Source: Maribacter dokdonensis DSW-8 (GTDB lineage: Bacteria > Bacteroidota > Bacteroidia > Flavobacteriales > Flavobacteriaceae). Taken from it: a stretch of DNA of 64,000 bases. Below are positions 11,174-43,149 of this stretch, piece by piece (positions within the stretch are counted from its first letter, which is position 1; each line of letters begins with the position of its first letter). Made by a program: the position numbers and the translations under genes. A model generated the notes under the pieces. It did no database searches. It saw only the letters and a list, made by a program, of their open reading frames with translations, and was not told the origin of the DNA. The DNA is taken from NCBI RefSeq assembly GCF_001447995.1, contig NZ_LDPE01000004.1, positions 171,183-235,182 of the forward strand, written 5' to 3'.

Positions 11174-12787
11174 ATGAAAAAACCAATTGTAATTACCAAA
11201 CTAAGCACTTTAGAAAACAAAAAACCAGAACATGCATTAGTCAATGGTTTGGATTTAGTAATCGTAAAGTTTGATGATGAAATATCAGTGCTTTACGGTA
11301 GATGTTTACATAGAGGGGCATTAATGTCAGACGGTCATGTAGATGGTCATAATCTTATTTGTGGTGTTCACGGGTGGGATTATAGAGTAGATACCGGAGT
11401 TTCAGAATACAATAACGCTGAGGTGTTACATAAATTTACTACTAAAATAGAAGGGGACAATTTGTTTGTAGATGAAGAAGAGATCGATGCCTATTTAGTT
11501 AATAATCCGCAGCCTTTTAATAGAGACGCGTATTTAGGTGCATACGCAGATACCCACCCTGAAGAAACAGAACCGTATACCGGGTACATAAAGGAACTTG
11601 CTACAAACGGGTTAAAAAACTTAGGTCATCACGGATTCTCGGCTTCCATGGGAGTAGATAGAAATACGTTGCCTAAATGGAGCGATATACAGTTTCTGCC
11701 AGCACAATTGGCAAGCAGACCTCTGTTAGATGAAGATGCCGTAGCAACAAAGGTGATTATTGGTCCAAATGCCAAAAAGCCTTTACATCTAGACATTCCA
11801 CTCTTTGTTAGTGATATGAGTTTTGGAGCGTTGTCTCGTGAAGCAAAAATTGCATTGTCTCGAGGGGCAGAAATGGCAGGTACGGGTATTTGTTCTGGAG
11901 AAGGCGGAATGTTACCCCAAGAGCAAGAAAATAACAGCAGGTATTTTTATGAATTGGCTTCGGCTAAATTCGGTTTTTCTTGGGATAAGTTAGACAATGT
12001 ACAAGCCTTTCATTTTAAAGGTGGACAAGGCGCTAAAACCGGTACGGGCGGTCATTTGCCTGGGTCAAAAGTAAGTAAGGAAATTGCTGAAGTTAGAGGA
12101 TTGAAAGAAGGGGAAACTGCTATTTCACCTGCAACTTTTCCAGATTTTAATGGCGTAGATGATTTTAAATCTTTTGCCGCTCAAGTAAGAGAATATACAG
12201 GAGGTATTCCTATTGGATTTAAAATAGCGGCCAGTCATATTGAAAAAGATATTCAGTTTGCATTAGATGTAGGTGTTGATTATATCATTTTAGATGGTAG
12301 AGGTGGGGGAACAGGTTCTGCACCAACTATACTAAGAGACAATATCAACGTACCTACAATTCCTGCTTTGGCAAGGGCAAGAAAATATTTAGATAAAGTA
12401 GGTGCTACAGATGTTACCTTGATAATCACAGGAGGTTTACGAATTGCCGAAGATTTTGGTAAAGCACTTATGTTAGGTGCAGATGCCATTGCCGTATCTA
12501 ATTCGGCTTTACAGGCAATTGGTTGTTTAGGAATGCGTGCTTGCGGTAGTAACAACTGCCCGGTAGGTATTGCAACCCAAAAAGAATCTTTGCGAAGTAG
12601 GCTGATAATAGAATCTTCTGCAAAACAATTACATAACTATTTTGATGCTACAAACAATCTGATTAAGGTTATTGCGAGAGCTTGTGGTCATGATGATATC
12701 TCAAAATTTAATTTTGATGACCTATCTACCTTTAATTATGACATGCATCGTCTTACAGGAATAAATTACGCAGGGATAAACGCTTAA
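11174..12787 (+). CDS. Rieske-domain fused to FMN-binding glutamate-synthase-like protein
   Basis: This 537-residue protein joins two redox modules. Residues 1-105 carry a Rieske [2Fe-2S] motif, Cys44-x-His46 and Cys63-x2-His66. The rest is the FMN-binding synthase domain of glutamate synthase (SFGALSREAK, GGQGAKTGTGGHLPG, GGRGGGTG), including the 3Fe-4S pattern C-x5-C-x4-C in CLGMRACGSNNC. No amidotransferase domain is present, so it is not a whole GOGAT. It lacks a signal peptide. It is first in a run of closely spaced genes to 14818. The likely role is an electron-transfer flavoenzyme on an amino acid or keto acid; the reaction is unknown. Confidence 0.8.
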   Translation: MKKPIVITKLSTLENKKPEHALVNGLDLVIVKFDDEISVLYGRCLHRGALMSDGHVDGHNLICGVHGWDYRVDTGVSEYNNAEVLHKFTTKIEGDNLFVDEEEIDAYLVNNPQPFNRDAYLGAYADTHPEETEPYTGYIKELATNGLKNLGHHGFSASMGVDRNTLPKWSDIQFLPAQLASRPLLDEDAVATKVIIGPNAKKPLHLDIPLFVSDMSFGALSREAKIALSRGAEMAGTGICSGEGGMLPQEQENNSRYFYELASAKFGFSWDKLDNVQAFHFKGGQGAKTGTGGHLPGSKVSKEIAEVRGLKEGETAISPATFPDFNGVDDFKSFAAQVREYTGGIPIGFKIAASHIEKDIQFALDVGVDYIILDGRGGGTGSAPTILRDNINVPTIPALARARKYLDKVGATDVTLIITGGLRIAEDFGKALMLGADAIAVSNSALQAIGCLGMRACGSNNCPVGIATQKESLRSRLIIESSAKQLHNYFDATNNLIKVIARACGHDDISKFNFDDLSTFNYDMHRLTGINYAGINA

Positions 12788-15376: not shown

Positions 15377-17284
15377 ATGAGGAAAGTAACCGTGTATTTT
15401 GTAATATTATTTTGGTGCGGATTTAACATAAAGGCACAAGAACAAGAGTATGGAAAAAATCAGCCCTATTCTTCTTATTGGTTTGTACACGAGCTTTTAG
15501 AATGGTCACCAGAAAATGATAGGGAATCAAAGTTTAATGTAAGTTGTATTCCTTTGGCAGATCGGTTTTTAAATGATAGTACGGATTTAGGAGAAGGTTC
15601 ACCAAAAATTCCGGGTATTATAGCTTTAATGGCACCTCATACCACTAATTTTCATCCTTCTCAAGGGTTTTCTTCGATAAAACAATATGCTTTTCCATTT
15701 TGGCAATACATAGATTATTTTGTGCAATGGGGTGGCTCAGCAAACGAAGGTATTATTGTGCCGCCAACAGCGTTCTGGACAGATGCTGCCCATAAAAACG
15801 GAGTAAAGAGTATAGGTACGGTGTTTTTTCCGCCCAACGTTTATGGCGGTAAGGAAGAGTGGGTGTATGAGTTTCTTGTAAAGAATGAGGATGGAGGCTT
15901 TCCTGTTGCCGACAAACTTATTGAAGTAGCTAAAACATATAATTTTGATGGCTGGTTTATTAATCAAGAAACGTATGATTTGGTGGGTAATATGGGGAAA
16001 CTCATGCAAGAATTCATCACATATTATAGGGAACGATCAAATTTAAAATTGGTCTGGTACGATGCCATGATAGATGATTCACGCGTAATTTGGCAAGACG
16101 AATTAAACGAGCACAATCAAATGTATTTTCAAAATGGAGATACTAATATGTCTGATGTGTTTTTTATCAATTTTAGGTATCACGATGTCAATTTAGAAGA
16201 TAGTAAACTTCTGGCCAATAAACTGGGAAGAAGTGAGTGGGATCTGTTCGCAGGTATAGACGTACAGTCCAAAAGTTATAAGACACCTGTAAAATGGGAT
16301 GCACTATATAAGAACGGTAAACCTAATAATACATCTATAGGTATTTACTGGTCCAACTCTACCTTTGATATTTCTGAAAGTAAAATGCCAGAGGACGTAT
16401 ACCGTAAAGAACAAAATTTTTGGAATGGTGGTTCAACTATAGAGACTAGGTTTGGCGAAAGTACTTGGCAAGGATTCTCCAATTATTTTGAACCACGAAG
16501 CGTAATTAATGAACTGCCTTTTAAATCTAATTTCAATTACGGACTTGGTAGTTTTTACAATGAGAAAGGAAAAACGGTTTCAAGAGAAGAATGGCATAAT
16601 TTAAGTATTCAAGACGTATTGCCAACATGGCAATTTCAGGTAGATACTACCAAAGTTGAACCTACCATTAGTTTTGAGGATAGCTATTTTGGTGGTAGTA
16701 GCTTATTTTTAGAAGCGTACGAGAATGCAGAACTACCTTTGTACAAGACAAAAATAAGTTTAGAAAAGAATGTGAATTTTAGCGTTGTCGCTAAAACTAC
16801 TGGTGATATAAGTTTAGAGTTTTATTGCCAATTATCTAACGGGGAGATTTTAACCAATGCGCTAAAAAATTCACTTTCCTGGAAGAAAAACAATTTTAGA
16901 ATAACCGCTCGTAAAAACGTTCGTATAATTAAAATCGGAGTTAGAACTAGGGGCAAAGGTAGTGCGTATTTAGGCGAAGTTGCCATAAACTCCAAACGCG
17001 AACCATCACCAACTACATCTCAATTTCAGGTAAATGGATTTTTAAATGAAAACAATGCCGAATTGTATGTTCATTTTAAAACTTTAGATGCTCCTGTATA
17101 TCATAATTTATACTTTATAAATGAAGAAAATGACAAAATTTGGTTAGGTAAAACACCCTCTAAAGATTTTTATATTTCAAAAATTCCTACAAAAAATGGA
17201 AAAATAAAAATTGAAGTGCAATCGGAGAGTTTTGGTGGTAAAAAAGGTGAAATCATTAAAAAAACCATTGACATTTCTAAATGA
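15377..17284 (+). CDS. GH85 endo-beta-N-acetylglucosaminidase
   Basis: This 635-residue protein has an N-terminal signal peptide (cleavage near KAQEQ). The catalytic barrel (about 30-360) shows GH85 landmarks: YAFPFWQYIDYFVQWGG, PPTAFWTDAAHKNG, then FDGWFINQET, where Asn196-x-Glu198 is the Asn/Glu pair used in substrate-assisted cleavage of the chitobiose core of N-glycans. The C-terminal 270 residues look like beta-sandwich domains. There is no Cys lipobox and no clear type IX sorting tail, so it is periplasmic or secreted. It stands alone, without SusC/SusD genes nearby. Family call is strong; natural substrate (algal or animal glycoprotein) is inferred. Confidence 0.85.
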   Translation: MRKVTVYFVILFWCGFNIKAQEQEYGKNQPYSSYWFVHELLEWSPENDRESKFNVSCIPLADRFLNDSTDLGEGSPKIPGIIALMAPHTTNFHPSQGFSSIKQYAFPFWQYIDYFVQWGGSANEGIIVPPTAFWTDAAHKNGVKSIGTVFFPPNVYGGKEEWVYEFLVKNEDGGFPVADKLIEVAKTYNFDGWFINQETYDLVGNMGKLMQEFITYYRERSNLKLVWYDAMIDDSRVIWQDELNEHNQMYFQNGDTNMSDVFFINFRYHDVNLEDSKLLANKLGRSEWDLFAGIDVQSKSYKTPVKWDALYKNGKPNNTSIGIYWSNSTFDISESKMPEDVYRKEQNFWNGGSTIETRFGESTWQGFSNYFEPRSVINELPFKSNFNYGLGSFYNEKGKTVSREEWHNLSIQDVLPTWQFQVDTTKVEPTISFEDSYFGGSSLFLEAYENAELPLYKTKISLEKNVNFSVVAKTTGDISLEFYCQLSNGEILTNALKNSLSWKKNNFRITARKNVRIIKIGVRTRGKGSAYLGEVAINSKREPSPTTSQFQVNGFLNENNAELYVHFKTLDAPVYHNLYFINEENDKIWLGKTPSKDFYISKIPTKNGKIKIEVQSESFGGKKGEIIKKTIDISK

Positions 17285-21090: not shown

Positions 21091-21098
21091 TAGATTTG
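21091..21098 (+). promoter_or_regulatory. -7 promoter element upstream of RND efflux operon
   Basis: TAGATTTG exactly fits the Bacteroidota -7 pattern TAnnTTTG and lies 37 bases before the ATG of the adaptor gene. A clear TTTG at -33 is not visible, so confidence is moderate. Confidence 0.4.
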
Positions 21099-21134
21099 TT
21101 AGTAACCAAACTAACTAAAAACAATCCACCACCT

Positions 21135-22214
21135 ATGAAAACAAAATACATTGTTTACGGTATCTTGCTGATAGGGTTGACCGCTTTGATCGTTTATCGA
21201 ATAAATGCCAATAATGAAATTGGAGAGCCTAAACTGTCAGAGGAATCATCAACAGCTACAACCGTAAAAGGCCTTGTTTTACAAGAACAAGAATTTAATG
21301 ACAATATTTCTCTCTCTGGAACTATTGAAGCCAATGAACAAATAGAAATTAGAAGTGAAATATCAGGAGTTGTAGAGAGTATCAATTTTGAGGAAGGTAG
21401 TAAAGTGGTAGAAGGTCAAGTACTTTTTACTGTAAATGATGTTGAGCTACAGGCACAACTTTCAAAAGTACAAACGGCACAAAAATTAGCTTCTGAAAAT
21501 GAACGAAGGGCAAAATTGCTTTTAGAAAAGCAGGCTATTAGTCAAGAGGAATATGAAATTGCAAGTGCGGATTTTCAGTCCGCAAGCGCAGAATCACAAC
21601 TCATACAAGCCCAATTATCAAAAACTATTGTTAGGGCACCGTTCTCAGGTACCATTGGTTTACGTTCCATATCAAAGGGAACCTATGTTACACCATTAAC
21701 ACCTATTGCTAAATTGGTAAATACCAGTAAACTTAAAATCACCTTTTCCATACCCGAAAAGTATGCATCCCAGGTAGAGATTGGTACAAATCTCACTTTT
21801 ACTACTTCAGACGCCAATATAAATCATGAGGCTACCGTGTATGCTATAGAACCTGAGGTTGAAATTGCTACCAGAACCTTGAAAATGAGAGCAATTGCAG
21901 AGAATAGTGAAGGGAAAATTTATCCAGGTACTTACGCAAACGTTCTTTTGCCTTTAGAAAGCGTTGATAATGCGTTATTGGTTCCGTCAGAATCTTTGAT
22001 TCCGGTACAGAACGGTAAACGCATTTTTATATCTGAAAAAGGTAGGGCGAAAGAGATAGATGTAGAGATTGGTACAAGAACTGGAAATGAAGTTAGGGTT
22101 TTGACAGGCTTAAAAGCCGGTGATACCATTTTAACTTATGGCGTGATGGCCTTAAAAAATGGCACACCGGTGGAAATAGATTTTAATCAACCAGAAGCAA
22201 GAACAGGGGAATAA
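21135..22214 (+). CDS. RND efflux periplasmic adaptor (membrane fusion protein)
   Basis: This protein has about 359 residues from the ATG at 21135. An in-frame TTG at 21096 is rejected because it overlaps the likely promoter and because the ATG begins directly at an N-terminal membrane anchor (MKTKYIVYGILLIGLTALIVY). Next come a beta-barrel/lipoyl region (GTIEANEQIEIRSEISGVVE), a coiled-coil hairpin (about 105-160), the returning lipoyl half (VRAPFSGTIGLRSISKGTYV) and the barrel and membrane-proximal domains. It bridges the inner-membrane pump and the TolC-type channel encoded next. The stop overlaps the pump's ATG (TAATG). Substrates are unknown. Confidence 0.9.
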   Translation: MKTKYIVYGILLIGLTALIVYRINANNEIGEPKLSEESSTATTVKGLVLQEQEFNDNISLSGTIEANEQIEIRSEISGVVESINFEEGSKVVEGQVLFTVNDVELQAQLSKVQTAQKLASENERRAKLLLEKQAISQEEYEIASADFQSASAESQLIQAQLSKTIVRAPFSGTIGLRSISKGTYVTPLTPIAKLVNTSKLKITFSIPEKYASQVEIGTNLTFTTSDANINHEATVYAIEPEVEIATRTLKMRAIAENSEGKIYPGTYANVLLPLESVDNALLVPSESLIPVQNGKRIFISEKGRAKEIDVEIGTRTGNEVRVLTGLKAGDTILTYGVMALKNGTPVEIDFNQPEARTGE

Positions 22215-25200
22215 TGAATCTATCTACTTTAAGCATAAAAAGACCGGTACTTGCCATAGTAATGAATGTGACCCTGGTTCTTTTTGGTATTATAGGTTAC
22301 ACGTATTTAGGAATTAGGGAATTTCCCTCAATTGATCCCGCACAAGTTTCGGTAAGAACTACTTATTCTGGTGCCAATGCAGATATTATAGAATCTCAAA
22401 TTACCGAACCACTGGAGAAGGCCATTAATTCTATTGACGGCATTAGAAATTTAAGCTCATCTAGTGTACAAGGTTCAAGTTCTATTAATATAGAATTTAA
22501 TCTAGACAAAGATCTAGAAGAAGCAGCAAACGATGTTAGGGATAAGGTGTCACAAGCAATTAGAAGTTTGCCCGATGATCTTGACTCTGCACCTGTGGTG
22601 TCTAAATCTGATGCGGATGCACAAAGAATATTGTCAATGACCGTTCAGAGCGATAATAAAAATATTCTTGAATTATCCGATTATGCTGAAAACGTCATCG
22701 CTCAAAGAATAGAAACCATACCAGGCGTTAGTAGTGTGCAAATTTGGGGTCAACGAAGATATGCCATGAGGCTCTGGATAGACCCTTTAAAACTTTCCTC
22801 ATATGGATTAACGGTTTCAGATGTACAAGATGCATTATTGGCACAGAATGTAGAATTACCATCGGGAAAATTAACCGGCGATAACACAGAGCTAACAGTA
22901 AAGACCATAGGTAATTTAAGTACTGAAGAACAATTTAATAATATCATTATCATGGCAGATAATGATAAGTTAGTGCGTTTAAGTGATATAGGCCAAGCTT
23001 CATTAGAGGGTGAGAACATGGAGACTAAAATGAGTGATTCTGGTCAGCCCATGGTAGCTACTGCGGTAATCCCACAACCCGGTACTAACTATTTGGAAAT
23101 CGCAGATGCTTTTTACGAAGAATACGAAAACCTTAAAAAAGATTTACCGGAAGGCTTTAAATTGAATATTGTAATTGACGACACCGTCTTTGTAAGACGG
23201 GCGGTTACCGAAGTAGCCGAGACCTTACTTATTTCGGTAATTCTGGTAATATTGGTCATCTTTGTTTTCTTTAGAAATTGGTCAATGGCCATGCGCCCTT
23301 TAATTGATATTCCTGTATCCTTAATTGCTACGTTTTTCGTAATGTGGTTGTTTGGTTATTCAATAAATGTTTTAACACTTTTGGCTATTGTATTGGCAAC
23401 GGGATTGGTTGTTGATGATGGTATCGTTGTGACCGAAAATATTTATAAAAAGGTAGAAGAGGGTATGAGTCCCATTGAGGCGGCTATCAAAGGGTCTAAT
23501 GAAATATTTTTTGCTGTAATATCCATATCAATAACATTGGCAGCCGTATTTTTGCCCGTCATCTTTTTAGAAGGGTTTGTAGGAAGGCTATTTAGGGAGT
23601 TTGGGGTAGTACTTGGAGCAGCTGTACTAATTTCGGCATTTGTGTCTTTATCGTTAACTCCCATGCTCAATGCCTACTTAATTAAACCGGGCAAACAAAA
23701 GCAAACAAAATTTTATCATGTAACTGAGAAATACTTTTTGCAAATGAATAAATCCTATGCAGAATCGCTAAGGGTTTTCATGAAAAGAAAATGGTTGAGT
23801 TTCCCTATTCTAGCGGGCTGTATAGCTTTAATTGCGGTATTTTATATTCTTCTACCAAAAGAAACGGCTCCTTATGATGATCGTAGCTTTATACGTTTAA
23901 GTGTTAATGCTCCAGAGGGTTCTTCTTATGAGTATATGGATAGGTTAATGACCGATATTACCGAATTGATAAATGATTCGGTACCAGAAAAAAAGGTGAG
24001 TTTGGTTTTGACTTCACCTGGTTTTGGTTCTTCATCTGTGAACAGCGGTAGGGCTAATATTGCATTGGTGGATCCTAGTGAGCGTGATCGATCGCAAAGA
24101 GAGATAGCCAATGATTTAGGTGAATGGGCAAAAGCTTATGTAGGAGGAAAATCAAACGTATCGGAACGCCCAACTATTTCAGTGAATAGACGTGGAGGTC
24201 CACCGATACAGTATATTATTCAAGCTCAGAATTTTGATAAGTTAAAGGAATACATACCGGAATTTATGGCAGAAGCTGAGAATGATGAGACCTTTTCTTA
24301 TGTAGATGTCAATTTGAAATTTGATAAACCGGAGCTATATGTTTCCATAGATAGGGAGAAAGCGGAGACATTAGGAGTATCTGTTATAGATGTAGCCCAG
24401 ACTTTGCAATTGTCATTAAGTGGTCAGCGTTTTGGCTATTTTTTAAAGAATGGAAAACAATATCAAGTAATAGGTCAGTTTGATAAGGAGGATAGGAATG
24501 CCCCAATGGACCTCACATCTATATTTGTAAAGAACAAGGACGGATTACTTATTCAATTGGATAATTTGGTACATACTACCGAGCATAGTAGTCCGCCACA
24601 ATTATATCATAACAATCGCTATATGGCAGCAACGGTTTCAGCAAATCTTGCGCCTGGAAAAACTATAAATGATGGTATTGCCGCAATGGAAAGAATTAAA
24701 GAAAATGTACTTGATGATACCTTTACCACTGATTTGGGAGGTGAATCTCGTGATTTTGTTGAGAGTAGTTCCAATACACTCTTTGCATTTGGACTAGCAT
24801 TATTACTGATATTTTTGATTTTAGCGGCTCAATTTGAAAGCTTTATTGACCCTTTTATTATCATTTTAACGGTGCCTATGGCGGTTGCCGGTGCACTGTT
24901 TTCATTGTGGTTGTTTGGGCAATCTTGGAATATATTTAGCCAGATCGGTACTATAATGCTAATTGGTCTTGTAACTAAAAATGGTATTTTGATTGTTGAG
25001 TTTGCAAACCAATTAAGGGAGCAAGGTATTGAAAAAAGTGAGGCAATTATGAAGGCTTCAGAATCAAGGTTAAGACCTATTTTAATGACCAGTTTAACCA
25101 TTGCATTAGGCGCTCTACCAATTGCGTTATCTCTTGGAGCAGCATCAACTAGTAGAATAGGTATGGGGGTAGTAATTATAGGAGGTACCATGTTTTCTTT

Positions 25201-25294
25201 GCTATTGACCCTTTTTGTGATACCTGCCCTGTATTTATTGTGGTCTAGGGAGAAAGTAGAGAGACCGGAATTTAAAGTACTTGAAACCAACTAG
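22214..25294 (+). CDS. RND multidrug efflux pump, AcrB/HAE1 type
   Basis: This 1026-residue inner-membrane pump has the full-length two-repeat layout: helix 1 at 12-30, two large periplasmic loops and helix bundles near 335-500 and 850-1010. The proton-relay residues are present: the Asp pair in GLVVDDGIVVTENI (helix 4) and the Lys in LVTKNGILIVEFAN (helix 10). That pattern marks HAE1-type drug or lipid exporters rather than heavy-metal pumps. It is the middle gene of adaptor-pump-channel, with a 1-base overlap upstream and a 1-base gap downstream. No regulator gene is adjacent. Confidence 0.93.
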   Translation: MNLSTLSIKRPVLAIVMNVTLVLFGIIGYTYLGIREFPSIDPAQVSVRTTYSGANADIIESQITEPLEKAINSIDGIRNLSSSSVQGSSSINIEFNLDKDLEEAANDVRDKVSQAIRSLPDDLDSAPVVSKSDADAQRILSMTVQSDNKNILELSDYAENVIAQRIETIPGVSSVQIWGQRRYAMRLWIDPLKLSSYGLTVSDVQDALLAQNVELPSGKLTGDNTELTVKTIGNLSTEEQFNNIIIMADNDKLVRLSDIGQASLEGENMETKMSDSGQPMVATAVIPQPGTNYLEIADAFYEEYENLKKDLPEGFKLNIVIDDTVFVRRAVTEVAETLLISVILVILVIFVFFRNWSMAMRPLIDIPVSLIATFFVMWLFGYSINVLTLLAIVLATGLVVDDGIVVTENIYKKVEEGMSPIEAAIKGSNEIFFAVISISITLAAVFLPVIFLEGFVGRLFREFGVVLGAAVLISAFVSLSLTPMLNAYLIKPGKQKQTKFYHVTEKYFLQMNKSYAESLRVFMKRKWLSFPILAGCIALIAVFYILLPKETAPYDDRSFIRLSVNAPEGSSYEYMDRLMTDITELINDSVPEKKVSLVLTSPGFGSSSVNSGRANIALVDPSERDRSQREIANDLGEWAKAYVGGKSNVSERPTISVNRRGGPPIQYIIQAQNFDKLKEYIPEFMAEAENDETFSYVDVNLKFDKPELYVSIDREKAETLGVSVIDVAQTLQLSLSGQRFGYFLKNGKQYQVIGQFDKEDRNAPMDLTSIFVKNKDGLLIQLDNLVHTTEHSSPPQLYHNNRYMAATVSANLAPGKTINDGIAAMERIKENVLDDTFTTDLGGESRDFVESSSNTLFAFGLALLLIFLILAAQFESFIDPFIIILTVPMAVAGALFSLWLFGQSWNIFSQIGTIMLIGLVTKNGILIVEFANQLREQGIEKSEAIMKASESRLRPILMTSLTIALGALPIALSLGAASTSRIGMGVVIIGGTMFSLLLTLFVIPALYLLWSREKVERPEFKVLETN

Positions 25295-25295
25295 A

Positions 25296-26600
25296 ATGAA
25301 TATAACCAAGTTACCATTTTTATTATTGATTATTTTACATCTTAACGCCGCCGCTCAAGAAATTCTGACTATTGAAGATGCCGTTAAGATTACGGTCAAA
25401 AACAACTATCAGATTATTACGGCCGCCAACAATTTAAAAATTGATTCTGTCTCCGTAAGTCCAGGTTTTGCTGGAATGCTTCCTACTTTAGAAGCAAGTA
25501 TTGAAGATAATAATAGTGTGCAGAATTTATCACAAACAAGAACAGATGGTTCTCAAGTAGAACAGGACAATGCTAAAAATAATAGTTTGGACTATGGGGT
25601 AACTTTAGATTGGACCTTATTTGATGGGTTAAGTATGTTTGCGGCATATGATCAATTGAAACAGAACCGAGAATTAGGTGCAGAAGAATTAAAGCAAGTG
25701 GTGTTAACCAAGGTTGGCGAGGTAATGATAACTTACTACGATTTGGTACAACAACAACAGCAATTAGCCGCTTTGGACAGTACTATTTTTATTTCAGAAC
25801 AAAGAGTAGAATTGGCTAAAAATAGATTCTCTATTGGAAAGGCCTCTAAACTGGAAGTTTTAAATGCTCAAGTAGATTTAAATACCGATCAAACTTTAAT
25901 GCAACGCCAAAAAGAACTGTATGCAAATACCAAAATTCAGTTGAACGAACAATTGGCGAGAGACTTAACAACCGATTTTAAGGCAGTACCTGAAATTTTT
26001 GTTGATGAAAGTCTAATACTGACCGATTTAGAATCGAAGTTAATGGAAAATAATCCCGAATTAAATGCAGAACGAATCAGTAGAAGGATAAGTGAGCTAG
26101 AACTTAAACAGGTTAAGGCATCAAGGTACCCCACCATTTATGCTACTACCGGTTATAATTTTGGAAAATCAGAATCTAGTCTTGGTTTTACTACAAGTTC
26201 GGAGTCTAACGGATTTAGTTATGGATTTGGGGCAACATTAAATTTATTTGATGGATTTAATCAAAATAGGAATGAGAAAATAGGAAAAATGGAATTGGAA
26301 AACGCAGCAATAGCTATTAAAGAAAAAGAACAACAGCTGCTTTCTACTTTGAGTACAACCTATCAAACTTATTTGACCAATATTAGTTTAATTGAACTAG
26401 AGGGAAATAATGAAGCAATAGCGAAAGAAAATTTAGACATAACCGTAGAAAAGTACAGGATAGGAATTATTCCTACAATAGAGTTTAGAACGGCACAACT
26501 TAATTATATAAATGCTAGGGTTAGGTTTAGTAATGCAAAATTTCAAGCCAAATTATCTGAAATTATTTTAAAACAAATGTCAGGAGAATTGGACATATGA
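25296..26600 (+). CDS. TolC-family outer-membrane efflux channel
   Basis: This protein has about 434 residues from the ATG at 25296; an in-frame TTG at 25281 would overlap the pump gene and lacks support. A signal peptide (cleavage near AAAQE) is followed by two long alpha-helical, Gln/Leu/Glu-rich repeats of the OEP family (for example LTIEDAVKITVKNNYQI and KNRFSIGKASKLEVLNAQVDLN, and again VEKYRIGIIPTIEFRTAQLNY). It completes the tripartite pump with the two upstream genes. A weak stem (CTTGGAA/TTCCAAG, 26628-26664) lies between it and the convergent ackA but has no T-run. Confidence 0.88.
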   Translation: MNITKLPFLLLIILHLNAAAQEILTIEDAVKITVKNNYQIITAANNLKIDSVSVSPGFAGMLPTLEASIEDNNSVQNLSQTRTDGSQVEQDNAKNNSLDYGVTLDWTLFDGLSMFAAYDQLKQNRELGAEELKQVVLTKVGEVMITYYDLVQQQQQLAALDSTIFISEQRVELAKNRFSIGKASKLEVLNAQVDLNTDQTLMQRQKELYANTKIQLNEQLARDLTTDFKAVPEIFVDESLILTDLESKLMENNPELNAERISRRISELELKQVKASRYPTIYATTGYNFGKSESSLGFTTSSESNGFSYGFGATLNLFDGFNQNRNEKIGKMELENAAIAIKEKEQQLLSTLSTTYQTYLTNISLIELEGNNEAIAKENLDITVEKYRIGIIPTIEFRTAQLNYINARVRFSNAKFQAKLSEIILKQMSGELDI

Positions 26601-35919: not shown

Positions 35920-38121
35920 TTAACCTATTACGGATTTCTCCGTAATAAACGGTTGATTATAATGTCTTTGTCCTGTAGCTTTATAAAGGGCATTGGCCAA
36001 CGCGCCAATAATTGGAGGTAAAGATGGCTCTCCCAAACCTGTTGGGTCAATTCCGTTATCCACAAAGAACGTTTCTATTTCTTTAGGTGCTTCCTTATGT
36101 CTTATTAAGCGATAAGTGTCAAAATTCTTGTGTTGTGGTTGCCCGTTTTCAAAGGTCATTTCACTATAGGTGGCATGCCCTATGCCATCTATAATACCAC
36201 CTTCAATTTGGTTTTTTGCAGCCATTGGGTTGATTACAATACCGCAATCTACCGCACACCATACTTTATCAACTTTTGGAGCATCCGTATCATCATTTAA
36301 GTCTAATACTTGTGCAACATAAGAGTTATGGCAGTAATAGGCAGAAACACCTCTTTTTGCACTACCTTGCCCGTTAGACCAACCGGATTTATCCCTTACC
36401 AATTTTAAAACACCGGCATAACGCTCGGGATCGTAATCGTTCTTTTCTGGTTCACCAACAGGATTTTTAATTGCTCTGTCAAAAAGTTCCAGTCTGAACT
36501 CAATAGGGTCTTTACCTGCGGCTTCTGCAACTTCATCAATAAAGGCTTGTTCTGCACCGGCAACAAAGTTTGAGCGTGGTGCTCGCCAAGCTCCGGTAGT
36601 AACTACCGTTTCTAAATTAAACTTCTCAGCTAAGTAATTATCTACGGCACCGGCAGGAAACCTGTTTTCAAAAAGTAGGTCGTCATTAGATCCGGCACCT
36701 TTAACATGCCATGCAAGCAAGTTACCCTCTTTATCCAATGCTGCTTTATATTTTACCTTGTATGTAGGGCGATATGTACCTTGGGTCATATCATCCTCTC
36801 GGGTATATACTAATTTTATGGGAGCTTGCATTTTTTGTGAAATCACCGCAGCTTCTACTCCAAATGTTCCATAGAGGCGTCTTCCAAAACCACCACCCAT
36901 ACGGGTCATTTTAATATCGATTTTTTCAACCGGTAAGCCTAATCTAGAAGCCAATGTTTTTTCTAAAAACTCAGGTGTTTGTATGGGACCGTTCAATAGC
37001 GCCCTTTCTCCATTTACATCTGCAAAGAAGTTCATGGGCTCCATGGTATTGTGTGCTAAAAATGGTGCGCTATACGTACGTTCAATAATCTTATCGGCTT
37101 TTCTAAATGCACTTGCCACATCACCATCTTTACGTGCAGGTTTTTTAGAAGTAGAATTCAATAATTTAGTCAATGCCTCATCATGGCCTTCGGTACTTTC
37201 TAAGGTCGAAGTTTCTTCCCATTCAACCTTCAACGCTTTTTTGGCTTGCATACATTGCCAGGTAGAATCACCTACAATGGCTACCAATTTAGCAATTGCA
37301 CCACCATCGGACCATTGTTTTTCAACATTTTCAGGATAAACATCAATAGGGAAAACATCTTTAATGCCGGGCATAGATTTTACAGCTTCGGCATCCATTG
37401 ATTTATAGGTGAGTCCAAAGGCTGGTGGATGTATGATCATGGCAATCATCATACCTTCCTCTTGAATATCAATACCAAATAAAGGTTTACCGGTAACCAA
37501 ATTAGGTCCGTCAACATTTCTTTTATCCGTTCCTATAATATTGAAATCACTTGTTTCTTTTAACGCAACCTCTTCTGGCACGGTCATGGTAGCGGCTTTA
37601 GAGGCCATTTCTCCAAAACCAGCGGAATTGTCAGAGGCGGTATGGCTTATAACACCATTGTCAACTGTTATTTCAGAGGCATCTACTTGCCATGCATCCG
37701 CTGCCGCAGCAACTAACATATGTTTTGCTGTGGCACCGGCCATTCTAAGTCCAGACCAACCAGCTCTTATAGATTGGCTTCCTCCCGCAAGTTGTCTTTG
37801 GAAAATATCGGTATTCAAAGGGGCTTGTTCAACCACAACGTCTTTCCAATCAACACCTAGTTCATCTGCTATGATCATAGGCATTGAGGTTTTTACATTC
37901 TGTCCAATTTCTGGATTTGGAGACATTATGGTTACCAAACCGTTATCGGCAATTTTTAAGAAACCATTAATGTTGAACCATTCCTTTGGTATACTTTTTA
38001 TTTGTTCTGGTGTTGGTTTGCATGAAGCAAGCCAGCTAAACCCTAAGATCATTCCGCCACCTGCTAGCGTACTACTTTTTAGAAAGGAACGTCTATTATA
38101 TGAAGTTTTAATGAGTGTCAT
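35920..38121 (-). CDS. molybdopterin-binding subunit of a xanthine-dehydrogenase-type hydroxylase (IorB-like)
   Basis: This 733-residue protein begins with a twin-arginine signal (NRRSFLKSST), so it is exported folded. Molybdenum-domain landmarks are present: GGGFGRR, GAWRAPRSN and the late catalytic Glu in GLGEPSLPP. The length and internal order fit the isoquinoline 1-oxidoreductase beta or aldehyde oxidase type. It works with the [2Fe-2S] subunit encoded just upstream (49-base gap). No FAD subunit, cytochrome c or XdhC-type maturation gene is in the window. The substrate (N-heterocycle or aldehyde) cannot be told. Confidence 0.85.
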   Translation of the reverse strand: MTLIKTSYNRRSFLKSSTLAGGGMILGFSWLASCKPTPEQIKSIPKEWFNINGFLKIADNGLVTIMSPNPEIGQNVKTSMPMIIADELGVDWKDVVVEQAPLNTDIFQRQLAGGSQSIRAGWSGLRMAGATAKHMLVAAAADAWQVDASEITVDNGVISHTASDNSAGFGEMASKAATMTVPEEVALKETSDFNIIGTDKRNVDGPNLVTGKPLFGIDIQEEGMMIAMIIHPPAFGLTYKSMDAEAVKSMPGIKDVFPIDVYPENVEKQWSDGGAIAKLVAIVGDSTWQCMQAKKALKVEWEETSTLESTEGHDEALTKLLNSTSKKPARKDGDVASAFRKADKIIERTYSAPFLAHNTMEPMNFFADVNGERALLNGPIQTPEFLEKTLASRLGLPVEKIDIKMTRMGGGFGRRLYGTFGVEAAVISQKMQAPIKLVYTREDDMTQGTYRPTYKVKYKAALDKEGNLLAWHVKGAGSNDDLLFENRFPAGAVDNYLAEKFNLETVVTTGAWRAPRSNFVAGAEQAFIDEVAEAAGKDPIEFRLELFDRAIKNPVGEPEKNDYDPERYAGVLKLVRDKSGWSNGQGSAKRGVSAYYCHNSYVAQVLDLNDDTDAPKVDKVWCAVDCGIVINPMAAKNQIEGGIIDGIGHATYSEMTFENGQPQHKNFDTYRLIRHKEAPKEIETFFVDNGIDPTGLGEPSLPPIIGALANALYKATGQRHYNQPFITEKSVIG

Positions 38122-38169
38122 CTGTTTGTTTTTTTAGAAGGTTAAAATCTCAATTAGAGTGCAAATCTT

Positions 38170-38634
38170 TTACGCATTTGAACTACTTGCAGCGTTTTTA
38201 ATTGCTTTCTTAATTCGAGTATAAGTACCACAACGGCAGATGTTACCGTTCATGGCATCTTCAATTTCGGTATCGGTCGGATTAGGATTTCTCTTTAAAA
38301 ATGCACTGGCGTTCATAATTTGACCGGCCTGGCAATACCCACATTGGTAGACATCTTCTTCTAACCAAGCTTTTTGAACTGGGTGATCTCCGTTTTCAGA
38401 GAGACCTTCAATGGTAGTAATTGATTGTTCGCCAACCGCTGATACGGGTAATTGACAAGACCTAACGGCATTGTCGCCCAAATGAACGGTGCAAGCGCCA
38501 CATTGCGCAATACCACAACCAAATTTTGTACCTACTAATTTTAAATGATCTCGTAGCACCCAAAGCATTGGCGTTGATGGGTCAACGTCTACTTCTTGGG
38601 TTTTTCCATTAACTTTTAAATTGAAGTTTGCCAT
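38170..38634 (-). CDS. [2Fe-2S] small subunit of the molybdenum hydroxylase (IorA-like)
   Basis: This 154-residue protein carries two iron-sulfur modules: a plant-type ferredoxin set [14 protein letters not shown] with a later Cys in RSCQLP, and a C-terminal four-helix set [10 protein letters not shown] with CRCGTY. It has no signal of its own, as expected for a subunit carried out by the Tat signal of its partner. It is the first gene of this two-gene minus-strand operon and moves electrons from the molybdenum site to an unknown acceptor. Confidence 0.9.
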
Positions 38635-38870
38635 GCTATTTTTTGTATTTGTTTGAGTCGCTTGAAATTAAGGTTTTTTTTAGAGTTTTAATGTGGTTTT
38701 AACTTTAAATATTCTTAAAGAAATGCCAACTTTTTGGTTAGCCATTTAGAGTGTCCAATTTGAAAGAGTTATTATAATATTTTATCGTGATATCGTAAGA
38801 AAAGTTATGCAGGTACATTTATCAAAATTAATAACCAATTGCTTAAGGGCATTTAATTGATAAGCACGGT

Positions 38871-39872
38871 ATGATTACTCAAAATATAACCTCAATTTCA
38901 GAATCTATCATAGACACGGTAGGCAACACACCATTGGTAAAGCTTAATAACGTTCTTGATGATTCACATTTTAATTTATTTGGTAAACTAGAGGCGGCTA
39001 ACCCTGCGGGGAGTATTAAGGATAGAACCTCACTTTATATTATAGAACAGGCACTTGCAAGTGGAACAATTAAAAAGGGAGATACCGTAATAGAATCAAG
39101 TTCCGGAAACATGGCCTTGGGCCTTGCCCAAGCTTGTTTGTATTATGGTTTAAAACTTATAGTCGTAGTGGACCCCAAACTAAATTCACATACAGAAAAG
39201 ATTTTAAAAACCTATGGCGTACGCATTGAGCATGTTACGGTACCCAAGGAAAATGGCGGCTATTTAGCGGCTAGGCTTGAGAGGGTTCAACAATTATTGG
39301 ATCAAATACCCAACAGTTATTGGTCTAACCAATATGGTAATCAAAATAATCCATTAACGCATCATGAAACTATGTCTGAACTAATGGATTCTTTACATGG
39401 CAAGTTAGATTACCTATTCGTTGCTACAAGTACTTGTGGAACACTAATGGGCTGTGCAGATTATATCCACGAAAACCATTTGAACACCAAAATTATTGCC
39501 GTTGATGCCGTTGGAAGTGTTCTTTTTGGCGGTCCACCATTAAAGAGGTTGATACCGGGTCATGGTGCCGGTGTGCCCTCTCAATTTTTAAATACCAGTA
39601 GAATTTATGATCATGTGTATGTAGATGATGTGGATTGCGCCCGCGGATGCTGGAGCTTACTGGAAAAAGAAGCCATTTTATGTGGTGGTTCTTCTGGTGG
39701 AATGATCAGTGCCGTACGTAAATACAGTCAAAAAATGGAGCAGGATAGTAATTGTGCACTGTTTCTATGTGATCGTGGAGAACGTTATTTAGATACCATT
39801 TATAATAGAGATTGGTTATTAAAAGAACTTCCGGAAAGTAAAAACGCTTTTACGCCAATTGGCGGTTGGTAG
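38871..39872 (+). CDS. SbnA-like PLP-dependent synthase (cysteine-synthase fold)
   Basis: This 333-residue fold-type II PLP enzyme has GNTPLVKL, the PLP Lys in GSIKDR, the substrate loop SSSGNMALGLA and the phosphate loop GGSSGG. The overall sequence, including QYGNQNNPLTHHETM and the C-terminal FLCDRGERYLDT, resembles SbnA, which joins O-phosphoserine and glutamate on the way to 2,3-diaminopropionate in staphyloferrin B. It leads a three-gene operon with an FAD enzyme 12 bases later. A plain cysteine synthase is less likely because of the neighbours. The product here is unknown. Confidence 0.8.
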   Translation: MITQNITSISESIIDTVGNTPLVKLNNVLDDSHFNLFGKLEAANPAGSIKDRTSLYIIEQALASGTIKKGDTVIESSSGNMALGLAQACLYYGLKLIVVVDPKLNSHTEKILKTYGVRIEHVTVPKENGGYLAARLERVQQLLDQIPNSYWSNQYGNQNNPLTHHETMSELMDSLHGKLDYLFVATSTCGTLMGCADYIHENHLNTKIIAVDAVGSVLFGGPPLKRLIPGHGAGVPSQFLNTSRIYDHVYVDDVDCARGCWSLLEKEAILCGGSSGGMISAVRKYSQKMEQDSNCALFLCDRGERYLDTIYNRDWLLKELPESKNAFTPIGGW

Positions 39873-39884
39873 AAGAGATATGTT

Positions 39885-41690
39885 ATGGAAAATACACAAT
39901 CATATAAAATAGGCATTGTAGGTTTTGGACCTAAAGGCTTCTATGCATTTGAAAGATTAATTGCATATATAAAAACTTATAATCTGTTTGAACACATACA
40001 AGTACATATTTTTAATTCGACGGGTTTTTTAGCCTCTGGAGATGTTTATAGACAAGATCAACCGGAGTATTTGATCATGAATTATACCAATGGTAATATT
40101 TCTGGTTGGGCTTTGCAAGAGCCATTTTCAGTAGTACCTAAAACTCCTGATTTTGTATCATGGCTTGAAAATAACAATTATGGAAGCACTTCGCCTAATT
40201 CATATGCTCCTAGAGCGCTAGTAGGTGAATATTTATCAGATTGTTATCATCAGGTTATGGAACATTTACCAGACAATGTAGAAGTTATAGATCATATAGG
40301 TTTGGTCACTAATGTAGTCAAGAATAACAACGAGTATCAGTTGCATTTTAAAAATGATGGGCTATCACAGGAATACGTGGTTAATTGTGATAAGGTACTT
40401 TTTACTACTGGTCACAATACGTTTAAATCTCAACGAGATAAATCCGTTGATAATGCCAAAAAGATAAACTTTATTTACCCTACCAATGATACATTAAAAC
40501 ATCTGAAAAAAGATTCATTAGTGGGAATTAAAGGCTTTGGGTTAACCGCCATTGATGCTATTTTGGCGTTGACCGAGGGTAGGGATGGAACTTTTGTCAA
40601 AAATGAAAAAGGAGTATTAAAATACGAGGCATCTGGTAAAGAACCATTTAAAATTTATCCGTTTTCAAGAACCGGATTGCCAATGATACCTAGAAATGGT
40701 TCCACTGAATCTTCTATAGAATTACATTATTTTACCCAAGAGTGTATGGCTCACTTAAAGGAAAATAAACCCGTAAGTTTTGAGTGTACGGTACTACCTT
40801 TGATAAAGAAAGAATTCTATTTTGCTTACTACAGTGTTTTGTTCAAAAACTATGGACATCAGTTTTATTACGATGAAGATTTTACCGTACTGGAAAATCA
40901 AGTGCAGTACTTTCATGAAGATTATCCTGAATCACCCGTTTTTAATTGGGATAGCATAGTAAATCCGTTTAATGATGAGCCTATTTTATCAACGGTGCTT
41001 TTACAATGCTATCTAGAATTTTTAATACAGGAAGCAAAAAAAGGAGAGGATGAAAGTCCATTTTTGGCTGCTGTTGGCGCATGGCGCAAAATAAGTCCGT
41101 TATTCAATGAACTGTACAGTTTTGGAGGATTGGATGCCGCTTCGCATAAATTGTTTGATACGTACTATTTTGGACTGTTCAATAGATTGTCATATGGTCC
41201 GCCAGTACAGAATATGCAGAAAATGCTGGCATTGTGCAAAGCGGGTATTTTAGATTTCACTTATATAAAAGCTTCGACTTGTTCAGAAAACACCGTGGAC
41301 GACAATTATACTTTGCAATTAAATGATGCCCAGGCTACAGAACTAAATTACATAGTCAATGCCACCATTTCCAGAGCAAGAGAGGGTGAATTTAAAAACG
41401 AGCTATACCAAAACTTAATAAAGAACGGTCTAGTACGTGCGTTTCAAAATAAACTAAATACCAGTTATAGCCCGGGTTGTGTGGATATAGATGAAAACGG
41501 TAATGCCATAAATGCACATGGTAAAGTTGATTCCCATATTACATTTTATGGTACTCCAACTGAAGGAATAACCTGTGATAATGATACCCTATCTAGGTCT
41601 AGAAACAATTTTGCAACTATTTGGGCAAAGCAAACCTGTTACAGCATATTAAAAAAAGCTAGAATCACCGAAAATTATGGAGGAGAATAA
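39885..41690 (+). CDS. FAD/NAD(P)-binding oxidoreductase, large, in SbnA-like operon
   Basis: This 601-residue protein has an N-terminal dinucleotide motif GIVGFGPKGFYAFERL (about residues 9-24) and the pattern SGDVYRQDQPEYLIMNY typical of the FAD-NAD(P)-binding (HI0933/NAD_binding_9-like) group; a second Gly motif is near GIKGFGLTAIDA (about 213). No signal peptide. Between an SbnA-like synthase and a PLP decarboxylase, it could oxidise or hydroxylate an amino-acid intermediate, a role that in the siderophore pathway is filled by the unrelated dehydrogenase SbnB. The following gene overlaps or abuts its stop. Reaction unknown. Confidence 0.7.
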   Translation: MENTQSYKIGIVGFGPKGFYAFERLIAYIKTYNLFEHIQVHIFNSTGFLASGDVYRQDQPEYLIMNYTNGNISGWALQEPFSVVPKTPDFVSWLENNNYGSTSPNSYAPRALVGEYLSDCYHQVMEHLPDNVEVIDHIGLVTNVVKNNNEYQLHFKNDGLSQEYVVNCDKVLFTTGHNTFKSQRDKSVDNAKKINFIYPTNDTLKHLKKDSLVGIKGFGLTAIDAILALTEGRDGTFVKNEKGVLKYEASGKEPFKIYPFSRTGLPMIPRNGSTESSIELHYFTQECMAHLKENKPVSFECTVLPLIKKEFYFAYYSVLFKNYGHQFYYDEDFTVLENQVQYFHEDYPESPVFNWDSIVNPFNDEPILSTVLLQCYLEFLIQEAKKGEDESPFLAAVGAWRKISPLFNELYSFGGLDAASHKLFDTYYFGLFNRLSYGPPVQNMQKMLALCKAGILDFTYIKASTCSENTVDDNYTLQLNDAQATELNYIVNATISRAREGEFKNELYQNLIKNGLVRAFQNKLNTSYSPGCVDIDENGNAINAHGKVDSHITFYGTPTEGITCDNDTLSRSRNNFATIWAKQTCYSILKKARITENYGGE

Positions 41691-41691
41691 G

Positions 41692-43149
41692 ATGTATTAT
41701 AAAGGAAAACCAAAATATCAACTTACACCGAAAACATCGGATTGGATGCATGAATTATTTAACAATCAATCCGTTGTTAAAGGTTTGGTAGAAAGATATG
41801 GTTCACCGATCAATGTACATCATTTGCCATCTTTCAACAACAATTGTGAGATGTACAAACAAGTATTTGAGAGTTACGGATTAAAATATAGAATCTTCTA
41901 TGCCAGAAAGGCCAATAAATCTAGAGGGTTGGTAAAACAAGCATTTGCATCGGGTATTGGTGTAGATACCGCCAGTTTTAAAGAATTGGAACAATCATTG
42001 GCATTAGGTGGTAATAGTGAAAATTTAGTGCTTACAGCTGCAATTAAGACAGAACCGCAAATTGAATTGGCCATAAAGAATGGCGTTCCTATCATATTGG
42101 ATAATGAAGACGAGTGTGTACTAACACAAGCAATTGCCAATAGAATTGGTCTAAAAGCAAATGTAGGTTTTCGCATTAGCGGATTTACCGTTGACCAAGA
42201 AAAACTTTATAGCCGTTTTGGTTTTGATGTTGATGAGGTAGTAAACTTCATTGCATCATATGTTGGGGAAAACAAGTCCTTTGATATGCTTGATGTTACC
42301 GGACTTCACTTTCATTTAGATGGATATTCCACTTATCAACGCAGCGTAAGTTTGGTTGCCAGCGTTCAAATATTTTCAAAGTTGAAAGAAAAAGGATATG
42401 CAATGTCCTTTATTGATATAGGTGGGGGTATACTAATGAACTATTTAGAAGATGAAAAAGAATGGAATACATTCAATGAACATTTGAAGAAGTCGGTCTT
42501 GGAAGATAGCAATGATATTACGTTTAACAATAATAGTCTTGGTTTTAGACTGGAGGATGGTCAGTTACGTGGTAAACTGAATACGTATCCGTTTTTTAAT
42601 GAGATAAACAAAGAAAGTTTTATTGGAGAAGTACTGGATTTTGTAGATGATCAATCTGGTTTGTCGGTAGCATCATTATTAGTAAAGAATGGAGTTGAAT
42701 TGCGAATAGAACCCGGTAGATCATTATTAGATCAAGTAGGTATGACAATTGCAAAAGTGATACACCGAAAGAAAGATGCAAAAGGGCAGTGGTTGGTAGG
42801 TCTAGAAATGAATATGAGCCAAATGATGAGTTCTAGCGCAGATTTTCTTTTAGACCCGTTTATGTTATATAATTCTGAGGTTGAAAAAAACGAGAATGTA
42901 GATGTATTTTTTACAGGAGCCTATTGTTTAGAAAGAGATGTGTTGCTGAAGAGAAAAATAACCTTGCCTAGATTACCTGCAATAGGGGAGTATGTTGCTT
43001 TTGTCAATACTGCTGGTTATATGATGCATTTTTTTGAAACCGAGGCGCATTTATTTGAGTTGTCATCCAATCTAATGTTTACGGGGTCCAATGAAAAATT
43101 ATCGTTTTTTCAATTTATTGATGATGCCAAAATTGCCTTGGAACAGTAA
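41692..43149 (+). CDS. PLP-dependent decarboxylase (alanine-racemase fold), Y4yA/SbnH-like
   Basis: This protein has about 485 residues from the ATG at 41692, which has GGAGGAG 7-8 bases upstream; ATG at 41677 would add five residues and overlap the previous gene by 14 bases. Fold-type III features are clear: PLP Lys in FYARKANKS, HFHLDGYS, the Gly-rich DIGGGIL, EPGRSL and the C-terminal YCLERD and TAGY active-site loops of the diaminopimelate/ornithine decarboxylase group. It probably decarboxylates the D- or L-centre of the operon's product, as SbnH does in staphyloferrin B, but no siderophore synthetase or exporter gene follows. Confidence 0.78.
   Translation: MYYKGKPKYQLTPKTSDWMHELFNNQSVVKGLVERYGSPINVHHLPSFNNNCEMYKQVFESYGLKYRIFYARKANKSRGLVKQAFASGIGVDTASFKELEQSLALGGNSENLVLTAAIKTEPQIELAIKNGVPIILDNEDECVLTQAIANRIGLKANVGFRISGFTVDQEKLYSRFGFDVDEVVNFIASYVGENKSFDMLDVTGLHFHLDGYSTYQRSVSLVASVQIFSKLKEKGYAMSFIDIGGGILMNYLEDEKEWNTFNEHLKKSVLEDSNDITFNNNSLGFRLEDGQLRGKLNTYPFFNEINKESFIGEVLDFVDDQSGLSVASLLVKNGVELRIEPGRSLLDQVGMTIAKVIHRKKDAKGQWLVGLEMNMSQMMSSSADFLLDPFMLYNSEVEKNENVDVFFTGAYCLERDVLLKRKITLPRLPAIGEYVAFVNTAGYMMHFFETEAHLFELSSNLMFTGSNEKLSFFQFIDDAKIALEQ

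Follow-up and report, generated by a model that had tools for sequence, protein, structure and literature searches.

A set of three adjacent genes, here called A, B and C, in the 64,000-nucleotide stretch of Maribacter dokdonensis DSW-8 DNA analysed in this study (the window) is a real and widespread pathway of three genes, each step of which can be given a likely enzyme class. The trio is a variant of SbnA-initiated diamine metabolism with an N-hydroxylase-type enzyme. We put at about one half the probability that it forms a dedicated, stand-alone three-step pathway of condensation by A, N-oxygenation by B and decarboxylation by C. Diaminopropionate (Dap) chemistry feeds siderophores and peptide antibiotics, commonly via the SbnA/SbnB pair. 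A compact and repeatedly inherited trio of this kind points to a metabolite class that genome mining based on SbnA/SbnB would misname or miss; in listings the trio proteins go by no more specific names than "SbnA", "FAD/NAD(P)-binding protein" and, for C, "Y4yA family" or "diaminopimelate decarboxylase". No description of the trio was found in the literature searched, a scope that took in few subscription papers. With three genes and nameable substrates, the trio is directly testable in vitro.

Organization of the locus

Gene A (38871..39872, + strand, 333 aa) encodes an SbnA-type PLP beta-replacement enzyme, predicted to be a synthase of N-(2-amino-2-carboxyethyl)-L-glutamate (ACEGA). Gene B (39885..41690, + strand, 601 aa) encodes an FAD/NADPH N-hydroxylase-like monooxygenase of the FzmM/CreE fold, and gene C (41677..43149, + strand, 490 aa) a Y4yA-family fold-III PLP decarboxylase. 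The three open reading frames are co-directional. A and B are separated by 12 bases (39873-39884), and B and C overlap by 14 bases when the first ATG is taken as the start of C; a second in-frame ATG at 41692, the start used by some homologues (e.g. P0150), gives no overlap. The coordinates bear out the preliminary description, which had reported a three-gene run with a 12-base gap followed by near-overlapping ends. Its assignment of an SbnA-like PLP synthase, a large FAD/NAD(P) enzyme and a PLP decarboxylase was equally sound: A carries the Pfam family PALP and scores 409.1 bits against the SbnA equivalog model TIGR03945 (cut-off 349.95), B carries PF13454, and C carries PF02784 (Orn_Arg_deC_N).

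Molybdenum-hydroxylase-type genes lie upstream in the opposite orientation (35920-38634), and genes for a VOC/3-dmu-type protein and a ribosome-hibernation-factor-type protein lie downstream. The host assembly is 4.4 Mb, and the nearest named homologues of the trio proteins are from Maribacter; in Maribacter litoralis the trio is present and its gene neighbourhood is also alike. Elsewhere in the window, the Pfam run on 22 proteins, out of 49 open reading frames of at least 120 aa, identified a 537-aa protein in which a Rieske domain is joined to a glutamate-synthase-type FMN domain (11174-12784) and a glycosyl hydrolase family 85 protein (15377-17281).

Alignment of the upstream rows revealed a conserved element, GAAAGAGTTATT...TGATAT...TAcATTTA, at 38762..38821 on the + strand, 50-109 bases before gene A. 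This block of about 60 bases is kept in 15 distinct genomes of the host genus, own included (18 upstream rows), and the remaining intergenic region 5′ of gene A is mostly unconserved across the same genomes. The block is possibly the promoter or operator of the operon. A sigma-70 promoter scan gave no excess (19 found, 21.4 expected from shuffles), nor did a terminator scan exceed shuffles, and no family was matched in an Rfam search for regulatory RNA at the trio.

Conservation and spread of the trio

A related-locus scan with B gave a single locus, and the survey rests on genome searches. When 198 relatives were searched with B, 27 genomes matched at E <= 1e-3. The complete trio is found in 18 of them (own, 14 of the same genus and 3 of the same family), and 8 have only a distant B-like protein without adjacent A or C, seven of these at 90-148 tblastn bits and one (G190) at 29.6 bits. 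A genus mate (G012) retains a decayed trio, with residues 1-122 of A and 556-601 of B beside a full-length C (L027, G012:C38). Of the 36 genomes of the host genus, 15 (the host's own among them) have the complete trio, which is therefore patchy there; a few of the remaining assemblies are themselves incomplete (64-85% complete). Across 395 genomes sampled evenly from the phylum (cut-offs B E <= 1e-40, C E <= 1e-30), B occurs in 9, C in 11 and both in 8, and the order is A-B-C in 8/8. The exceptions are G199, which has a B-like gene alone, and G241 and G290, which have a distant C without B. In G523, C stands at the very start of a contig and is 52% identical, and no B was found. Across all genomes examined, B matches scoring more than 260 tblastn bits occur in 23 genomes and in the window, and each of them is preceded by A and followed by C. 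A second search using the B alignment added P0241 and P0242 alone among the best 120 of 173 matches.

The same gene order recurs across phyla, so the trio is not a matter of chance. The preliminary description had proposed a genome-neighbourhood survey, with failure of the trio to co-occur in other genomes as the outcome that would count against it; the survey found A, B and C together widely. Furthermore, A and B are fused in Pricia and Mesonia (P0063, P0074, P0088) and at loci L041 and L042, of which L041 is probably the same Pricia genome as P0063. The pairwise distances of A, B and C, taken with one locus per genome or plasmid, correlate at 0.96-0.99 (27 members, 351 pairs) and at 0.90-0.94 in a thinned set (14 members, 91 pairs, still including two of the host genus and two Sulfitobacter), with genome kinship contributing to both figures. 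The order A-B-C is also kept on both Sulfitobacter plasmids examined and on the Tsukamurella plasmid pTpau01, and the trio is probably mobile. The B frame of pTpau01 (L062:6382-7899, 506 aa) carries PF13454, and the annotation covers just part of it, as a hypothetical protein.

Outside the genus the flanks hold no common pathway gene, as judged by Pfam on 20 proteins, of which 19 come from nine other trio genomes and the remaining one adjoins the solitary B of G199. Their families include short-chain dehydrogenase, VIT1, Na/H exchanger, asparaginase, sigma factor with FecR, heme oxygenase and others, and 2/20 have no Pfam family. A conjugative plasmid of Vibrio crassostreae carries a lone flavoenzyme of B's family (L063:5965-7761, 212 bits) next to an MFS transporter; neither A nor C has a match within the 13.7 kb fetched.

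Enzymes encoded by the trio

The best solved relative of A is SbnA of S. aureus (5d84, E 9.7e-77). The available part of PMC12414870 describes Arg132, Tyr152 and Ser185 of SbnA as key for binding O-phosphoserine (OPS). The matching residues of A are R135, Y155 and S187, and this triad is kept in 27/27 distinct trio proteins, drawn from 39 trio rows that represent 27 distinct genomes or records after omission of a fragment (L027) and a second match of G114 (L029). By family and specificity residues, A is predicted to make ACEGA, with OPS and most likely glutamate as its substrates. The preliminary description would have been undercut by A being a plain cysteine synthase in activity. A does score 206 bits with the cysKM model, though below its cut-off of 344, and its scores with the cysteine-synthase models in general stay under their cut-offs. 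Yet it exceeds the SbnA cut-off and its OPS-specificity residues are those of SbnA, unlike the host's three other CysK-like proteins, which have Gly at the Ser position; at the level of sequence the objection appears to be largely answered. That A is a cysteine synthase in an incidental neighbourhood is hardly to be credited, given also the invariant triad, the three other CysK-like genes at the host's disposal and the order of the trio conserved across phyla. Plain cysteine synthase was rejected as the identity of A on model score and residues.

The closest solved structure to B is FzmM. B shares full-length homology with the aspartate N-hydroxylases FzmM and CreE (8CP2, 8CP5; PMC10404684, available in part), at 24% identity, and the three-domain class-B N-hydroxylase fold is present. 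The catalytic Asn is kept (FzmM Asn62, N66 of B, 59/59 rows), as is the NADPH-side motif (G217, L220 and T221 in 59/59, G219 in 58/59). The preliminary description had spoken of an unrelated flavoenzyme replacing the dehydrogenase. The replacement stands, but B is a full-length relative of aspartate N-hydroxylases, and because of this relationship the likely chemistry is N-oxygenation and not a plain dehydrogenase swap. B is thus likely to perform N-oxygenation, as predicted from its sequence.

One could suppose from this closest structure that B hydroxylates aspartate itself to give nitrosuccinate or nitrite, with A and C acting on nitro or nitrite-derived compounds. This is very improbable, since the four entry-chamber residues of FzmM, Arg276, Arg412, Asn413 and Arg416, are replaced by L280, S404, P405 and N408 in B (HMMER alignment), and the substitution N413E in FzmM abolished hydroxylation. 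Across the 59 B rows, R is found at 408 in 1/59 and N at 405 in 4/59. B differs from FzmM and CreE also in its linkage to SbnA and a decarboxylase, sometimes as a fusion with SbnA. As an aspartate N-hydroxylase proper, B was rejected on the differing chamber residues.

Several homologues of C are named "Y4yA family PLP-dependent enzyme", and diaminopimelate decarboxylase or alanine racemase are the names of others. In the NCBIfam search C matched no model named Y4yA. K78, H213, G249-251, E345-R348 (the EPGR motif) and C417 are invariant in 41/41 aligned rows, an alignment that includes Sinorhizobium Y4yA and relatives from Mycobacterium and Aureimonas. From knowledge of the fold, K78 is presumably the PLP lysine and C417 the catalytic Cys. 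The predicted structure of C (pLDDT 86.8) matches best the D-ornithine/D-lysine and diaminopimelate decarboxylases in a fold search. Among solved decarboxylases, diaminopimelate decarboxylase scores better (E 9e-18) than 6knh (E 5e-8), which we take to be SbnH, and C as an SbnH orthologue is unsupported. The parallel with SbnH drawn earlier holds as far as a PLP decarboxylase is concerned, but C is not SbnH-like, being of Y4yA type and nearer to diaminopimelate decarboxylases.

Relation to siderophore and peptide synthesis

The staphyloferrin B enzymes SbnA/SbnB/SbnH of Staphylococcus aureus are the nearest known parallel in two respects: gene A qualifies as an SbnA on model score as well as residues, and both systems have a fold-III PLP decarboxylase. 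In the trio, however, an N-hydroxylase-type flavoenzyme stands in the place of SbnB, C is nearer to diaminopimelate decarboxylase than to 6knh, and NIS synthetases are not found. Fifteen genomes, chosen from the 24 trio genomes and including the host's own, were tested for synthetase families. IucA/IucC was found in 0/15, own included, and of 14 controls, E. coli and Haloferax gave a positive result in the same search. The earlier statement that no siderophore synthetase is present therefore holds genome-wide for IucA/IucC. The accompanying statement that there is no receptor or exporter fared less well. An RND efflux set lies at 21096-26600, about 12 kb upstream of the trio, and nothing was seen tying it to the trio; for the rest, the Pfam check of the statement covered 22 of the 49 window open reading frames of at least 120 aa.

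Alternatively, a siderophore or non-ribosomal peptide could be assembled by genes at another place in the genome, and the trio would then provide it with Dap or with a building block derived from Dap. Sub-clusters of sbnA/sbnB are abundant in gene clusters of Bacteroidetes, according to the available part of PMC9248904, and four rhizobial-type Y4yA clusters carry IucA/IucC. NRPS condensation domains are present in the host genome and four other trio genomes, but are absent from 10/15, and IucA/IucC is lacking in all 15. Moreover, no synthetase is found among the 19 neighbouring proteins examined in nine further trio genomes; the transporters among them are VIT1 and a Na/H exchanger, once each. 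Such a supply role is consequently judged improbable, and an NIS siderophore or NRPS sub-cluster was rejected as the general explanation on the IucA/IucC and condensation-domain counts, although the host's own genome has an NRPS. This NRPS lies on contig C1, apart from the contig of the trio, and nothing was seen connecting the two.

Proposed pathway

From established SbnA chemistry, the expected product of A is ACEGA. In the stand-alone pathway that we favour, A would join O-phospho-L-serine to a second amino acid. Its family and specificity residues suggest L-glutamate as the most likely partner and the secondary amine ACEGA as the product. B, as an NADPH/O2-dependent flavin N-hydroxylase, would take this product directly and oxygenate its nitrogen. 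N-oxygenation of a secondary amine yields a hydroxylamine, and a second round yields a nitrone, which on hydrolysis gives a ketone and a primary hydroxylamine. B may thus stop at the N-hydroxy compound, or may iterate to the nitrone, whose hydrolysis would give 2-oxoglutarate and beta-N-hydroxy-diaminopropionate. FzmM oxidises repeatedly (PMC10404684, in the part available), and B could accordingly release 2-oxoglutarate via a nitrone. It would then release 2-oxoglutarate as SbnB does, yet leave an oxygen on the diaminopropionate nitrogen. C would remove the carboxyl group that adjoins the free amine on the half derived from serine, to give an N-oxidised ethylenediamine-type product, the order of the B and C steps being a proposal only.

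A possible though doubtful alternative is that B is a stand-in for SbnB, splitting ACEGA oxidatively into L-2,3-diaminopropionate and 2-oxoglutarate with no oxygen left on nitrogen; C would then turn Dap or a Dap conjugate into ethylenediamine, and the product would be Dap or 1,2-diaminoethane. The A-B fusion is consistent with this, as are other clusters of CysK-type and Y4yA-type genes that include a member of the ornithine cyclodeaminase (OCD, SbnB) family or an octopine dehydrogenase relative. The OCD/SbnB family was not found in 10/15 trio genomes, own included, which also fits a stand-in, but the other 5/15 have such a gene elsewhere in the genome. The best relatives of B are NADPH/O2 monooxygenases, and the NADPH-side motif and catalytic Asn so strictly kept in B would be needless for a dehydrogenase.

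The N-oxygenation pathway can be carried further to a specific product, albeit speculatively and with rather poor odds of being right as a whole. The trio may make a small metal-binding N-hydroxy metabolite, either N-hydroxylated ACEGA decarboxylated on the serine half (an N-hydroxy-iminodicarboxylate) or free N-hydroxy-ethylenediamine, through repeated flavin-dependent oxygenation of a secondary amine that passes from SbnA to the hydroxylase within their fusion protein, and may have spread across three phyla partly by plasmids. To our knowledge, no metal-binding N-hydroxy metabolite of this kind is known from any bacterium. The aminopolycarboxylate metallophores [S,S]-EDDS and EDHA, a tentative lead, would resemble the proposed product as ethylenediamine-based chelators. 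Their ethylenediamine bridge is serine-derived. EDDS is made by neither NRPS nor NIS, as given in the available part of PMC4993170.

Related clusters with Y4yA-type genes

Outside the trio, ten stretches bearing a Y4yA-type gene were examined, by Pfam for some and by annotation for the rest. A CysK-type gene lies near the Y4yA-type gene in nine, G290 being the one without. An octopine dehydrogenase relative and IucA/IucC accompany them in 4/10 (Sinorhizobium fredii, Bradyrhizobium, S. chiapasense and Agrobacterium vitis plasmids), an ornithine-cyclodeaminase relative and a MATE exporter in 2/10 (Mycobacterium avium, Aureimonas), and a class-V aminotransferase with a CysK-rhodanese protein in 2/10 (G241, a Streptomyces plasmid); the M. 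chimaera stretch has CysK-type and Y4yA-type genes and no further enzyme annotated. The further enzyme varies among Y4yA clusters, and the trio is thus one form of a modular scheme, its redox slot filled by an N-hydroxylase-type enzyme.

The y4yB-y4yA-y4xP-y4xO-y4xN-y4xM cluster of S. fredii, whose role is called enigmatic in the available part of PMC3973906, resembles the trio in having a Y4yA decarboxylase beside a CysK-type enzyme, but its third enzyme is an octopine dehydrogenase relative, and IucA/IucC and an MFS transporter are present in the stretch. The trio gives this enigmatic rhizobial y4yA a pathway logic: a CysK-type enzyme, one exchangeable enzyme and Y4yA. The clusters of Mycobacterium avium pMAH135 and Aureimonas pAU20b likewise combine a CysK-type enzyme, one redox enzyme and a Y4yA-type decarboxylase, annotated in pAU20b as "amino acid decarboxylase". 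Unlike the trio, both have OCD instead of the flavoenzyme and are followed by a MATE exporter; in pAU20b the gene order also differs and iron ABC-transporter genes adjoin.

On the Mycobacterium chimaera plasmid (L085:5303-8744), the Y4yA and MATE exporter genes lie opposite an ArsR/SmtB metalloregulator gene, an arrangement hinting at a metal link for Y4yA products. The set of Y4yA-type gene, CysK-rhodanese fusion and class-V aminotransferase in G241, of the same phylum (L086:2041-10520), and on the Streptomyces plasmid (L080:7001-11826) perhaps represents another pathway; a flavin amine oxidase and a GNAT protein are likewise encoded in the G241 stretch. Outside the trio, a small gene for a "ParB N-terminal domain-containing protein" immediately precedes Y4yA in three cases, S. 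fredii, Bradyrhizobium and Agrobacterium vitis, and in Aureimonas it lies close by (L059:6465-6893, L081:5555-5986, L082:4456-4890, L084:5480-6004).
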